Below, piece by piece: positions 6,818 to 21,181 of a DNA stretch of 64,000 bases. The notes under the pieces were generated by a model that was given only the letters and a program-made list of their open reading frames with translations, had not been told where the DNA came from and searched no databases. The position numbers and the translations under genes were made by a program. Every line of letters starts with the position of its first letter. Within the stretch, counting starts at the first letter, position 1. Source of the DNA: Pseudomonadota bacterium (GTDB taxonomy: Bacteria > Pseudomonadota > Gammaproteobacteria > Xanthomonadales > Rhodanobacteraceae); NCBI GenBank assembly GCA_021827205.1, contig JAKAWV010000011.1, forward strand, positions 1 to 64,000, read 5' to 3'.

Positions 6818-8182
6818 ATGCCATTCATTCCGCACTCCGAAGCAGACGTCCGCGCCATGCTCGCGGCCATCGGCGTCACGCAGATCGAGGATCTGTTCGA
6901 CGAGATTCCGCCCACGCTGAAGGCGCAGGCTCTGCAGCACGTGCCCACGGGCATGCCGGAGATGCACGTCGCGCGTCTGATGCAGGGCCGCGCCGCACAG
7001 GATGCCGGAGTGCTCAATTTCGCCGGCGCCGGCGCTTACGAGCACCACATTCCGGCGGCGGTGTGGCAGATCGCGACCCGCGGCGAGTTCTATTCGGCCT
7101 ACACGCCATATCAGGCCGAGGCCAGCCAGGGCACGCTGCAGTTGATCTACGAATACCAGACCATGATGACGCGGCTGACCGGAATGGATATCAGCAATGC
7201 CTCGCTGTACGACGGCGCCACCGCGCTGGCCGAGGCGGTGCTGATGGCCGAGCGCTGCATGAAGAAGGGCGCGCGTCGCGTGCTGGTGCCGCGCAGCGTG
7301 CATCCCGCGTATCGCAAGACATTGCGTACCATCGTCGATTTGCAGAACATCGATGTGGTCGAATTCGATTTCTGTCACGACGGCGCCACGGCCGGCGGCA
7401 TCGCGCCCGACTGGCTGGCGCAGCAGGATTTCGACGCGTTCACATCGCTGGTGGTGCCGCAGGTCAATTACCTTGGCGTACTTGAAGAGGTCGATGCATT
7501 GACCGATTGGGCGCACGCGCGCGGCGCGCTGGTGATCGGCCTGATCAATCCGCTGGCGCTGGCAGTGCTCAAGGCGCCCGGACAATGGGGTGCCAAGGGA
7601 GCCGATATCGTGATCGGCGAGGGTCAGCCGCTGGGCGTGCCGCTCAGTTCGGGCGGGCCGTATTTCGGCATCCTGGCCTGCAAGCTGGAATTCGTGCGGC
7701 AGATGCCGGGACGCATCGTCGGGCGCACCACCGATCTTGATGGGCGAGAGGGTTTCACGCTCACCTTGCAGGCGCGCGAGCAGCACATCCGCCGCGCCAA
7801 GGCCACCTCCAACATCTGCACCAATCAGGGTTTGCTGGTGACCGCCGCAACCATCCACATGGCGTTGTTGGGCCCTGAGGGTCTGCGCCGCGTGGCAGCG
7901 CACTGCATACACAACGCGCGTGCGCTGCGCGCGCGCCTGACGGCGCTGCCGGGTGTGCGCGTGCTGTTCGAGCGCGCGGGTTTTCACGAGTTCGCGCTGG
8001 CGTTGCCGTTGCCTGCCGGCACGGTGATCGAGCGCCTTGCCGAGGCGCGCATTCTCGCTGGCGTTGCCCTCGACGAGGACTATTCCGAGCTGGGCAACGC
8101 GTTGCTGGTGTGCGCCACCGAGACCAAGACCGAGGGCGATCTCGACCGCTACGCCAAGGCGCTCGACGGTGCATTGCGCTGA
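6818..8182 (+). CDS. gcvPA: Glycine dehydrogenase (decarboxylating) subunit 1
   Basis: 454 residues, matching the N-terminal half of the P protein as found in organisms with a split glycine decarboxylase. It opens with [15 protein letters not shown] and contains [14 protein letters not shown] and [10 protein letters not shown] segments. In the two-subunit P protein the PLP lysine sits in subunit 2 (GcvPB), so this chain needs that partner. No gcvPB follows: the next gene is the metJ-like regulator. GcvPB must lie elsewhere or be missing. Confidence 0.94.
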
Positions 8183-8382
8183 AATCGGCGCGCGCGCAGG
8201 CAAAAAATTTCTGTCGCCGCGCGTGCTCAACGCAATTTTTTTATTGCGAAGTTCACTGGCGTTCAGTGCCATTTGTACCACGTGGCACGCATCACGTCGT
8301 ATGCGTGCGTCGCCGCCATGGACGCGCGCGCGACGGTGCAATGCAAGCAATAGCAAGGCTTGCAGCGCAAACATGAATTTCA

Positions 8383-8414
8383 AAACGTGAAGACGTCTAG
8401 ACATCCATACGTCC
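8383..8414 (+). promoter_or_regulatory. Tandem met boxes (MetJ operator)
   Basis: Four contiguous 8-mers in exact 8-base phase: AAACGTGA, AGACGTCT, AGACATCC, ATACGTCC. The second is the full consensus met box AGACGTCT, and the others match it at 4 to 6 of 8 positions. MetJ dimers bind such arrays cooperatively. The array lies in the 373-base gap between gcvPA and the metJ-like gene, about 140 bases before its ATG, and points to autoregulation. The rest of the gap (8183-8382 and 8415-8499) shows nothing else I recognise. Confidence 0.75.
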
Positions 8415-8499
8415 ATAACAACAAATTGTTCATTGCCGCACAGGCTTGAGTACGCGTCGCCTTGCCGCGCGCGTCGTGCGTCAAATGCAGCGAAATCGA

Positions 8500-8535
8500 T
8501 TGACAGTGGAAAAATGACGCAATAGTTTCTGCGTC
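8500..8535 (+). promoter_or_regulatory. Candidate promoter with overlapping inverted repeat before the metJ-like gene
   Basis: TTGACA (8500-8505), a 17-base spacer and TAGTTT (8523-8528) form a sigma-70-like promoter 28 bases before the ATG. GACGCA (8516-8521) and TGCGTC (8530-8535), separated by 8 bases, form an inverted repeat across the -10 region. The met boxes are about 85 bases upstream of this -35, unusually far for simple occlusion, so a second promoter or looping is possible. Confidence 0.45.
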
Positions 8536-8555
8536 GGAAGATCAGTGAATAAAGA

Positions 8556-9122
8556 ATGGCGACGTCCAAATTCATCAAGCCTTATATCGAGCACGGCGCA
8601 AAAGCCGAGGCGGTACGCAAGATCACCGTGTCGGTTCCGCTGCATGTGCTCAAGGTGCTCTCTGATGAACGTACCCGTCGCCAGATCTGCAATCTCAGGC
8701 ACGCCACTATTAGTGATCTTCTGTGCGAGGCGTTCCTGCATGCTTTTACTGGGCAACCACTGCCAACTGACGAGGAGCTGAGACGAATTATGGCTATCAA
8801 GAAAACTGCTGCGAAGAAACCCGCCGCCAAGAAGCCTGCGGCGAAAAAGTCCACTGCCAAGAAGGCCACGACCAAGAAGGTCGCCAAGGCCAAGGTCGCG
8901 ACCGCCCGCAAGACGGCCGCGAAGAAGCCCGTGAAGAAGGCTGCGGCCAAGAAGCCGGCAGCCAAGAAGGCTGCGGCCAAGAAGCCGGCCGCCAAGAAGA
9001 AGGCTGCGGCCAAGAAGCCGGCCGCCAAGAAAGCCGCGGCGAAAAAGCCCGCGGCGAAAAAGTCCGCCAGGAAGGCGGTGAAGAAAGCTGCTCCCATGAA
9101 GGTGGCAGCGCTCGCCCTCTGA
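8556..9122 (+). CDS. metJ: MetJ methionine repressor fused to a histone-H1-like Lys/Ala-rich tail
   Basis: 188 residues. Residues 1-80 are MetJ: the beta-strand [19 protein letters not shown] that enters the DNA major groove is followed by [20 protein letters not shown] and [10 protein letters not shown], near-identical in plan to E. coli MetJ. Where E. coli MetJ continues into a final helical segment of about 30 residues, this protein switches at about 81 to 108 residues of AAKKPAAKK-type repeats with no acidic residues, like eukaryotic H1 or bacterial H1-like/AlgP tails. The tail should bind DNA without sequence specificity, so the protein may combine operator recognition with nucleoid compaction. 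Met boxes upstream support repressor function. There is no stop or frameshift at the junction. Confidence 0.85.
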
Positions 9123-9158
9123 GACGAGTGTCGTTCTGCAAGCTGGTAACTTTTCCAC

Positions 9159-9187
9159 CCTCTCCGCGACTGCCCAGCGCGGAGAGG
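9159..9187 (+). other. Perfect 10-bp stem-loop after the metJ-like gene
   Basis: CCTCTCCGCG (9159-9168), a 9-base loop and CGCGGAGAGG (9178-9187). No T-tract follows directly; it precedes the terminator at 9207. Confidence 0.5.
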
Positions 9188-9206
9188 GGCCTCGAAGTCG
9201 AGGTCG

Positions 9207-9234
9207 CGCCCCGCACTGCGGGGCGTTTCATTTT
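9207..9234 (+). terminator. Rho-independent terminator of the metJ-like gene
   Basis: CGCCCCGC, a 3-base loop and GCGGGGCG (9207-9225) are followed by TTTCATTTT. It lies 85 bases after the stop at 9122 and separates that transcript from the TonB-like gene. Confidence 0.75.
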
Positions 9235-9360
9235 GTGTCGGCGACATTTTCGCATTGCTCGCCGCGCGTGATCGGGCTAACGTGGCACTCGCGCTTGCGG
9301 CGTTCCAAACCGCACAGGGGGAAGCAGTCGGGGGCGCGCCCATCCACATGAGGCTTGCCC

Positions 9361-10380
9361 ATGGCTATTGAGTCCGTATTTCCCCGTGCCAACACCCGCT
9401 TTGGGGCGGCGGCGATGGTCGCGCTGTTGTGTGCGGCACTGGCCGCATGCTCCGGCTCCAATCAATCCGCACCGCAGGCCGCCAAGGCGCCTGTTGCCCC
9501 AGCCAAGGCCGCATCGACCAGCGCCAAGCCAGCCACCATCGCCCCCAATGCCGCCGATCGGCTGACCGCGATGAGCGTTGATCAACTCATGGACCATGCG
9601 CAGAAAGCGCTGAAGGAAGACCGCCTGGTTGCGCCTGCGGGCGACAACGCGTTCGAGTATTACCTCGCAGTGCTGCATAAGAGCCCCAACAATCGTGCCG
9701 CGCAGGATGCCCTGCGCGAAACCTTCCCGTATGGCGCGCAGACCGTCGATCAGACCATCAACCAGGGAAACTACGCCGAGGCGCAGCGTGAAATTGACCT
9801 GCTGGCCAAGGCCGACCCGACCAATTACACACTGACGATCTTGCGGTCCAAATTGGATGCTGCGCGCAAGGTGGCGACGCAGCAGCAACAGGCACGGAAG
9901 GCCGCCGCGCTGGCGCAAACCGCGACTGCGGCGGCCGCAGCCGCGCAGAGGCAGCAGGAACAGGCCGCCGCCGCCGCGCTCAAGCAGCGACAGGAACAGG
10001 CGGCTACGGCTGCCGCATTGCAACAACAGCAGGAGCAGCAAGCAGCCGCGGCGGCGGCTGCGCGGAAAGCTGCCGTCGTCAAGGTTCCGGCGCAAACCGA
10101 GAACCGCAATGCGCAGGTCGTGCGTCAGGTGCCGGCCAAGTATCCGCTGCAGGCCGCGCGCAACGGTGAGCAGGGCTGGGTGGACGTCGCGTTCACCGTC
10201 AATCCCGATGGCTCCGTGAGCAATGCCCACGTTACCGACGCGGAGCCGCGCCGAGTCTTCGACCGCGCCGCGATCGATGCCGTGTCGCGCTGGCGGTTCA
10301 AACCGGCGCTGATCAACGGCAGGCCCACTGCGGTCGTGGTCAAGCGCCGCATCGAGTTCAAGTTGTCCGGCAACGGCTGA
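9361..10380 (+). CDS. TonB-family lipoprotein with Ala/Gln-rich linker
   Basis: 339 residues from ATG 9361, with GAGG 8 bases before it; the in-frame TTG at 9355 is less likely. The N-terminal segment ends in a lipobox LAAC near residue 31, so the mature protein is probably lipidated. Residues about 60-165 look helical, with possible TPR-like repeats. About 165-245 is an Ala/Gln-rich coiled-coil linker. The C-terminal 90 residues are a TonB domain (YPLQAARNGEQGWVDVAFTVNPDGSV and RWRFKPALINGRP). Canonical TonB has a transmembrane anchor rather than a lipobox, and no exbB/exbD are adjacent, so this is a variant energy-transducer or envelope protein of unknown partner. Confidence 0.75.
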   Translation: MAIESVFPRANTRFGAAAMVALLCAALAACSGSNQSAPQAAKAPVAPAKAASTSAKPATIAPNAADRLTAMSVDQLMDHAQKALKEDRLVAPAGDNAFEYYLAVLHKSPNNRAAQDALRETFPYGAQTVDQTINQGNYAEAQREIDLLAKADPTNYTLTILRSKLDAARKVATQQQQARKAAALAQTATAAAAAAQRQQEQAAAAALKQRQEQAATAAALQQQQEQQAAAAAAARKAAVVKVPAQTENRNAQVVRQVPAKYPLQAARNGEQGWVDVAFTVNPDGSVSNAHVTDAEPRRVFDRAAIDAVSRWRFKPALINGRPTAVVVKRRIEFKLSGNG

Positions 10381-20470: not shown

Positions 20471-21181
20471 TTACTTGGGCAAATACGAGGGCCCGCCCAA
20501 TTGGCGCATCTGCTGCTCGATCCATGCCGCGCGACGCAGCACGTAGGGCGAGGGTCGATTGGCGTGGAAGATGTGCGGATTGGGCAAGGTCGCGGCCAGC
20601 AGCGCGGCCTCGCGTGGCGTGAGGCGCGAGGGTGGCTTGGCGAAGTTGACGCGGCTGGCGGCAGCGACGCCGAACACACCGTTGCCCAACTCGGCGATGT
20701 TCATGTAGATGGTAAGGATGCGCTGCTTGGGCAGATTCAGCGTCAGCAGCACAGTGAAGTAGGCCTCGATGCCTTTGCGCACATAGCTGCGTCCATCCCA
20801 CAGAAACAGGTTTTTCGCGGTCTGCTGGGTGATGGTACTGGCGCCGCGCAGCCGCGCGCCGTGGTCGGCGGCATCGATGGCGTCCTTGATCTCGCCGAAG
20901 TCGAAGCCCCAGTTGCTGGGAAAGGTCTGATCTTCGCCGGCGACCATGGCCAGTGGCGCCCATGGCGACACCGCGCGCCACGGCACCCAGTGGTAGTCGG
21001 TGCGGTAACGGCTGTCGCCATGCAGGCGCGCACCGACCCAGCGCTCGATCATCACCGCGCTGGTGATGGGTGGAATCCAGCGCAGGCTCAGCACCAGCAG
21101 TTCGGTGATCACGAACCACACCAGCAGAGCGCGCAGCAGATAGCGCCAGAAGCGGCGGCGGGGTTTGGCGGGCTTGGTCAT
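20471..21181 (-). CDS. mtgA: Monofunctional biosynthetic peptidoglycan transglycosylase
   Basis: 236 residues from ATG 21181. An N-terminal membrane anchor (about 12-33) precedes a GT51 domain. The catalytic Glu is in MVAGEDQTFPSNWGFDF near residue 78. Conserved blocks RGASTITQQTAKNLFLW and ILTIYMNIAELGNGVFGVAAAS follow. It polymerises glycan strands from lipid II in the periplasm. It converges with arsB with 9 bases between stops and is divergent from hslO. Confidence 0.94.
   Translation of the reverse strand: MTKPAKPRRRFWRYLLRALLVWFVITELLVLSLRWIPPITSAVMIERWVGARLHGDSRYRTDYHWVPWRAVSPWAPLAMVAGEDQTFPSNWGFDFGEIKDAIDAADHGARLRGASTITQQTAKNLFLWDGRSYVRKGIEAYFTVLLTLNLPKQRILTIYMNIAELGNGVFGVAAASRVNFAKPPSRLTPREAALLAATLPNPHIFHANRPSPYVLRRAAWIEQQMRQLGGPSYLPK

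Follow-up and report, generated by a model that had tools for sequence, protein, structure and literature searches.

A MetJ repressor fused to a histone H1-like tail in Rhodanobacteraceae, and a likely internal translation start within its gene

In Rhodanobacteraceae, a family of bacteria from soil and water, the methionine repressor MetJ is joined in a single reading frame to a lysine- and alanine-rich tail of the histone H1-like kind, and the junction between the two parts is marked by a stretch of nearly invariant codons, containing a Shine-Dalgarno-like motif, that precedes a conserved in-frame ATG. As read from the sequence, the fusion is certainly real, and an internal start yielding the tail as a free H1-like product is likely. 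The best explanation, which is considered probable, is that one gene specifies both a SAM-responsive tailed repressor and an internally initiated free tail.

In the proposed mechanism, metJ of this family would be a "gene within a gene". In the long product, the MetJ core would recognize the tandem met boxes of the metX-metB-hom promoter and of metJ, and probably those of metK, and the Lys/Ala tail, being flexible, would contribute an affinity for DNA that is independent of sequence. The met operon would come under double control by SAM, through MetJ at the promoter and through a SAM-I riboswitch in the transcript. The short product would be the H1-like tail alone, started at the ATG of codon 79 from a ribosome-binding site within the gene that evolution appears to have held almost constant. 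On its own, the tail would serve as a small nucleoid-associated protein; its level would follow that of the repressor and, by way of metJ autoregulation, may be linked to methionine/SAM status. With slightly more reserve, but still as a fairly probable reading, we propose that a conserved ribosome-binding site inside one gene gives rise to two DNA-binding proteins of opposite kinds, so that production of a nucleoid protein is bound to production of the repressor, and that SAM acts on the met operon at two levels, on DNA through this repressor and on RNA through SAM-I.

Organization of the metJ reading frame

The open reading frame lies at positions 8556-9122 on the plus strand of the window, which is the whole 64,000-nucleotide stretch of DNA analysed, and it runs from ATG to TGA with zero frameshifts, encoding 188 amino acids plus the stop. 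Residues 5-79 match the Pfam MetJ family (PF01340) with 127.3 bits against a cut-off of 25, residues 4-79 match the NCBIfam MetJ equivalog NF003622 with 131.4 bits against a cut-off of 110, and the closest solved structure is that of E. coli MetJ (PDB 1cma; E 3e-32, residues 4-83). The core, a ribbon-helix-helix protein by family, comprises residues 1-77 (8556-8786, plus strand) according to the profile and structure matches. Of the 97 profile positions, the Pfam match covers none beyond 79; the C-terminal segment of MetJ (profile positions 80-97) is accordingly missing, its place being taken by the tail. In 15 Rhodanobacteraceae sequences, residues 58-67 of the core are invariant, as are K22 and T24, which we take, from residue identity in the 1cma complex, to be the DNA-contacting β-strand Lys and Thr. 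The core presumably responds to SAM as a corepressor.

The tail, proposed as a separate 110-residue protein on the grounds of junction conservation, pairing energy and its HC2 match, extends from the internal ATG at 8790-8792 (Met79) to the stop (8790-9122, plus strand) and consists of 40 Lys, 42 Ala, 8 Pro and 2 Arg among other residues, with no Asp, Glu, Phe, Trp or Tyr. It scores 41.4 bits against Pfam HC2 (PF07382; cut-off 40), a marginal match that is probably driven by composition, and it remains below the cut-offs of the NCBIfam H1-like models NF038053 (40.7 bits, cut-off 80) and NF038052 (33.2 bits, cut-off 135). The AlphaFold model, built on 13 alignment rows, is too poor for claims about the fold (mean pLDDT 50, pTM 0.19); its values under 50 for residues 88-188 are consistent with predicted disorder. 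A terminator-like stem-loop with a T tail follows at 9206-9226 on the plus strand, as located by a terminator scan.

These results bear out the initial annotation, which had described a MetJ core joined to an H1-like tail of about 108 Lys/Ala residues with no acidic residue, encoded in an intact frame and followed by a terminator. Its further proposals, that the tail compacts or bridges DNA or couples methionine status to nucleoid structure, are conjectural. A second MetJ was not found in the same genome by profile search (3.04 Mb, 43 contigs). The neighbouring genes are gcvPA upstream, at 6818-8182, and, directly downstream at 9355-10380, a gene whose product has a TonB C-terminal domain and a middle part rich in Ala and Gln.

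The junction between core and tail

The junction was compared in 144 sequences, corresponding to 147 MetJ-positive genomes (145 from the family sample together with G005 and G012 from the genus search) minus G113, G116 and G123, in which the MetJ match is cut or split at contig ends. The 157 loci collected included 13 from repeat genomes, which were counted once, and two loci (L004 and L030) break off within the tail or ahead of it, leaving 142 complete ORFs.

A stretch of synonymous constraint identified by codon conservation covers codons 63-76 (42 nt; 8742-8783, plus strand) and ends two codons short of the internal ATG. It reads GCT TTT ACT GGG CAA CCA CTG CCA ACT GAY GAG GAG CTR AGA, with scant synonymous variation except at D72 and L75. 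Third-position agreement at conserved codons averages 0.92 within this stretch and 0.64 before it (Mann-Whitney p 4e-6; all 144 sequences). E73 is encoded by GAG in 143 of 144 sequences and E74 in all 144, whereas the codons of E12, E38 and E58 are mixed; likewise, R76 is AGA in 137 of 144 and never AGG, AGA being unused at R39, R41 and R42 (104 sequences counted there). These Glu and Arg control positions outside the junction were counted in 104-143 sequences, and one per-codon usage count took 104 of the 144, the anchor motif being missing from the rest. Beyond the stretch, codon 77 is CGA in 99/144 (third-position agreement of R77, 0.70) and codon 78 is variable. A 33-nt core of the junction is present with at most three mismatches in 142 of 144 sequences, and in the order sample it occurs as a single copy in each of 34 Rhodanobacteraceae genomes and in none of 166 others. 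In the tail-less MetJ genes of two other families of the order, f12 (six sequences) and f9 (13 sequences), the codons at this place are mixed and the stretch is absent.

Within the stretch, the Shine-Dalgarno-like motif AGGAG (8773-8777, plus strand) lies 12 nt before the internal ATG. The same spacing is found in 131 of 142 sequences and a spacing of 9 nt in the other 11; the usual optimal distance between a Shine-Dalgarno motif and its start is shorter than 12 nt. The ATG of codon 79 is kept in 142/143 sequences, with Ala as the next residue in 137 of 142, and the residue preceding it varies or is missing across the family. Mean computed pairing with the anti-Shine-Dalgarno sequence amounts to -10.3 kcal/mol at the internal ATG; the corresponding means are -5.8 for the start of metJ, for which the Met closest upstream of the PY motif was used, and -5.0 for other Met codons in the frame. 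Among 50 of the 142 genes that were folded, the junction is less folded than its synonymous shuffles in 50/50, with a mean z of +1.75, against +0.35 and -0.66 for control windows (up to 40 genes). The constrained stretch and the internal ATG together are conserved over 25 of the 26 genera sampled.

One genome departs from this pattern. In G018, which consists of a single contig, the tail is present, but GTC GTG occupies the position of the ATG, AGGAG is absent and ordinary codons run through the junction, with seven mismatches in the 33-nt core. Since this sequence falls inside the Rhodanobacteraceae group of the MetJ tree, the missing stretch and ATG are most simply explained as a loss.

An unlikely alternative is that the gene has the fusion as its single product, in which the tail lengthens operator residence or bridges DNA and the junction codons act as a rare-codon pause for folding of the MetJ core. 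In agreement with this, the frame between core and tail is open in 142/142 complete ORFs, many of the constrained codons (ACT, CCA, AGA, CGA and GGG) are rare in these genes, and the constraint ends two codons ahead of the ATG. However, particular codons are fixed and not merely rare ones, given that R76 is never AGG and that GAG GAG is not rare, and the presence of AGGAG and the retention of an ATG whose preceding residue is free to vary or disappear are hard to reconcile with a mere pause, which on general grounds would also fall before the core clears the exit tunnel. Furthermore, G018 retains the fusion and has nevertheless lost both the stretch and the ATG.

Less likely again is the possibility that the junction constitutes some other nucleic-acid site, such as an internal promoter, a regulatory RNA or a protein target, next to which the ATG is incidental. 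The occurrence of exactly one copy per genome in the 34 Rhodanobacteraceae genomes would suit such a site, and the constraint begins 48 nt before the ATG, which exceeds the need of a ribosome-binding site, and stops two codons short of it, so that the stretch may hold something else too. On the other hand, a simple scan of the plus strand at 8183-9354, which also misses a weak promoter noted by eye before metJ, revealed no sigma-70-like site; a consistent junction hairpin was not found, a 4-bp hairpin being present in only some of eight folded sequences; and retention in 142/143 sequences would not be expected of an incidental ATG, which in G018 is lost together with the stretch.

Internal initiation at codon 79 is the reading retained here, with the qualification that in some genomes a free tail of no more than about 35-40 residues would result. 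The frame linking core and tail, closed in none of the 142 ORFs, argues for a need of the fused product as well. The locus offers a test case for internal translation starts, with a 42-nt stretch that is nearly letter-identical in 25 of 26 genera and that one genome, a single contig, has lost naturally. In the other frames of codons 71-76, codons 75/76 contain a +1 stop in 137/142 sequences, and codons 71/72 a -1 stop in 128/142. A frameshift or stop-restart device at the junction was considered and is not favoured, the +1 stop being missing in five sequences.

Phylogenetic occurrence of the fusion

Profile searches detected MetJ in 145 of 147 Rhodanobacteraceae genomes, representing 26/26 genera, and in 12 of the 13 genomes of the genus to which the analysed genome belongs. 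Relatives of the MetJ core include those of Dyella, Luteibacter, Rhodanobacter, Frateuria, Tahibacter, Dokdonella, Oleiagrimonas and Mizugakiibacter. Every one of the 142 complete metJ ORFs carries a tail, which varies from 35 to 310 residues (median 100) and has a median Lys plus Arg fraction of 0.40; in a second locus set, comprising 80 of 553 MetJ-core relatives, all 72 complete ORFs are tailed as well.

That the tail is a non-functional expansion of low-complexity repeats is very improbable: the wide range of lengths and the simple repeats are what such an expansion would produce, but the tail is never absent from a complete ORF, contains no aromatic residue in any of the 142 sequences, has no acidic residue in 107 of them and only one or two in the remaining 35, and shows conservation of several Lys positions and of the initial Met-Ala. 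That two separate genes were joined artificially by the assembly or by a sequencing error has a negligible probability, since, although contigs end inside the gene in a few genomes, the same architecture recurs in single-contig genomes, in named isolates and in all 26 genera, and the 142/142 tailed ORFs refute it, in line with the initial judgement that the fusion was not an obvious assembly artefact. A separate MetJ of normal length, which that judgement had named, together with a separate H1-like protein, as the observation that would speak for a sequencing error, was encountered in none of the 144 Rhodanobacteraceae genomes; the second MetJ matches seen in a few of them are fragments at contig ends.

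In an order sample of 200 genomes, MetJ outside Rhodanobacteraceae is confined to f9 and f12. The MetJ frames of f9 have 95-106 residues, plus one of 143 measured from the stop codon ahead of it, and are without a Lys/Ala tail. Those of f12 have 80-88 residues and terminate in LPTDEELARPE or a similar sequence, exactly at the point where the tail starts here. This coincidence is observed in six f12 genomes (L157-L162), and it suggests that the C-terminal segment of MetJ is dispensable in f12 also. Around these six loci (2.8-5.3 kb), no ORF of at least 40 residues with more than 20% Lys, as expected of an H1-like gene, was found beside the tail-less MetJ. A class sample of 369 genomes gave three MetJ matches outside Rhodanobacteraceae, with frames of 112-118 residues. 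In a tree of the 72-residue MetJ core, calculated from 44 rows (29 Rhodanobacteraceae, five of six f12, nine of 13 f9 and E. coli), the Rhodanobacteraceae rows form one group (98/96), a result to be read in view of the few columns for the number of rows.

Regulatory sites of the met genes

A met-box array (AGACGTCT AGACATCC ATACGTCC) at 8391-8414 represents the probable MetJ operator of metJ itself, positions 8391-8406 having two mismatches to the 16-nt tandem consensus. It is followed by a possible promoter, TTGACA-N17-TAGTTT (8500-8528, plus strand), recognized by eye and regarded as weak because it scores under the threshold of the promoter scan. Across the family, a tandem pair matching at least 12 of 16 positions occurs within 300 nt upstream of metJ in 95 of 144 sequences, against 1.1% of shuffles that keep base composition only, and 49 of the 144 upstream regions are without such a pair.

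The promoter region of metX in the same genome shows, in order, three met boxes, TTGACA, a SAM-I riboswitch, metX, metB and a hom-like ORF (by eye). The riboswitch (RF00162) was located at L068 1553-1665 with 71.1 bits against a gathering score of 44.4, and a SAM-I match is present in 59/59 Rhodanobacteraceae genomes examined. In the best-scoring 30 of these 59 genomes' loci, a met-box pair matching at least 13 of 16 positions was found in 30/30, while only 0.5% of shuffles, again matched in base composition alone, reach 12 of 16, and TTGAC, corresponding to the -35 element, begins no more than 9 nt after the pair in all 30 and exactly 1 nt after it in 23.

The situation differs in the sister family f2, inferred to be Xanthomonadaceae, which was represented by SAM-I promoters from 24 of the 35 f2 genomes in the order sample, 23 of them with a match. 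No MetJ was found in this family by profile search of the order sample, and the met-box pair is found in 0/23 of its SAM-I loci; instead, a 24-bp ATC-N18-GAT element stands directly before TTGACA in 23/23 (L333-L355) and in 0/30 of the Rhodanobacteraceae loci. A 24-bp SamR palindrome has been described for Xanthomonadales in the available portion of one report (PMC4239095), and the f2 element resembles it, so that Rhodanobacteraceae carry MetJ boxes where f2 has a SamR-like site. Within the passages available from earlier studies, the met operon of Xanthomonas is likewise preceded by a SAM-I riboswitch (PMC4239095, PMC7270179, PMC6230763), which has been characterized (PMC7270179). There has thus been an apparent swap of the DNA regulator at one promoter between sister families, and the Rhodanobacteraceae promoter, as judged from its sequence, combines MetJ boxes and a SAM-I riboswitch in series.

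In the analysed genome, good met-box pairs lie before metX-metB, metJ and metK and upstream of cysK, the metK and cysK boxes having been looked at in this genome alone. A genome-wide scan allowing up to three mismatches returned nine places compared with six for the control, three of them without explanation (C28:216707, C13:31555 and C26:46); because this count is barely over the control, the case for operators rests on position and conservation. The pair near cysK (L269 near 3079; G000:C13:39078-39093) is palindromic, GGACGTCTAGACGTCC, and is situated between a phoU-like gene (by eye) and cysK. The MetJ regulon may include cysteine synthase. The role of an operator-binding repressor, assigned initially from the core alone, gains support from the candidate met boxes preceding met genes, and MetJ of Rhodanobacteraceae is very probably an active met repressor.

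Relation to described proteins and regulators

In comparison with E. coli MetJ (1cma), the protein of Rhodanobacteraceae is alike in its core (residues 4-83) and in the tandem AGACGTCT-type boxes before met genes and its own gene. It differs in lacking the C-terminal segment, in carrying an H1-like tail, in acting, presumably, above a SAM-I riboswitch and in the probable internal start. HupB has a Lys-rich tail on its DNA-binding domain. To our knowledge, no internal start is known at the tails of HupB or TopA. Excerpts on actinobacterial TopA likewise describe a basic repeat tail on a folded DNA-binding domain (PMC7398561), an arrangement common to these proteins and the tailed MetJ, although their domains are not metabolite-responsive operator-binding repressors.

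The tail itself shares Lys/Ala/Pro repeats and H1-like composition with HC2 and the Burkholderia-type H1-like proteins (PF07382, NF038053) and with Pseudomonas AlgP. Unlike in those proteins, the repeats are here attached to a sequence-specific repressor, and the HC2 score is barely above the Pfam cut-off, with the NCBIfam scores below theirs. Fragments of AlgP and KPAA peptides have been reported, in the text available, to bind DNA (PMC9239181). According to the accessible part of another study, SAM binds MetJ on the face away from the DNA and acts through its positive charge (PMC1282579); by analogy, a tail with about 40% Lys/Arg could raise affinity as the charge of SAM does, but unspecifically.

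Genes within genes, or alternative-start proteoforms, were reportedly described by Meydan in 2018. In the excerpts of a further study, in-frame internal starts with Shine-Dalgarno motifs are documented, the Shine-Dalgarno context being stronger at alternative than at annotated starts (PMC11005335), and a stronger internal motif is computed here too. The present case is distinct in that the short product would be a wholly different kind of protein, H1-like, and that its start is retained across 25 of the 26 genera sampled. Production of the free tail would mean that one gene couples a metabolic repressor to the supply of a nucleoid protein.

Regarding MetJ in the order, the four Xanthomonadales genomes of one survey were, in the portion available, listed without MetJ, whose origin was placed in other orders (PMC4239095), and metJ was given as missing from Xanthomonas campestris 8004 (PMC6230763, in excerpt), whereas according to a contrary statement, also from an excerpt, many Gram-negative bacteria, Xanthomonas among them, appear to have conserved the MetR/MetJ system (PMC7270179). 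The present results show a tailed and apparently working MetJ in a family of the order for which the four-genome survey listed none. In the available text of a 2025 study of Rhodanobacter R12, MetJ is named as a putative repressor with changes in abundance (PMC12146267), so that MetJ in Rhodanobacteraceae is not in itself unreported. Histone H1 proteins of Xanthomonas campestris have been described, and MetJ is not named among them in the part available (PMC8578834). Among the matches listed from the open-access PMC literature, as far as their text was available, no description of a tailed MetJ or of an internal start in metJ was found. As the components are each known already, the novelty lies in their combination and in the conserved internal-start element.

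Further H1-like extensions occur in the analysed genome. A 412-residue frame (L331 1408-2643; G000:C34) consists of a long Lys/Ala/Pro N-terminal part and a part that is DksA-like by eye (RNA polymerase-binding), which would make it the second regulator extended by an H1-like part in this genome. In addition, a frame of about 860 residues that is topoisomerase-I-like by eye (L332; G000:C42 near 20901-21116, minus strand) ends in a Lys/Ala C-terminal tail, and frames of about 830-890 residues with HC2 matches are recurrent in many of 41 Rhodanobacteraceae genomes.
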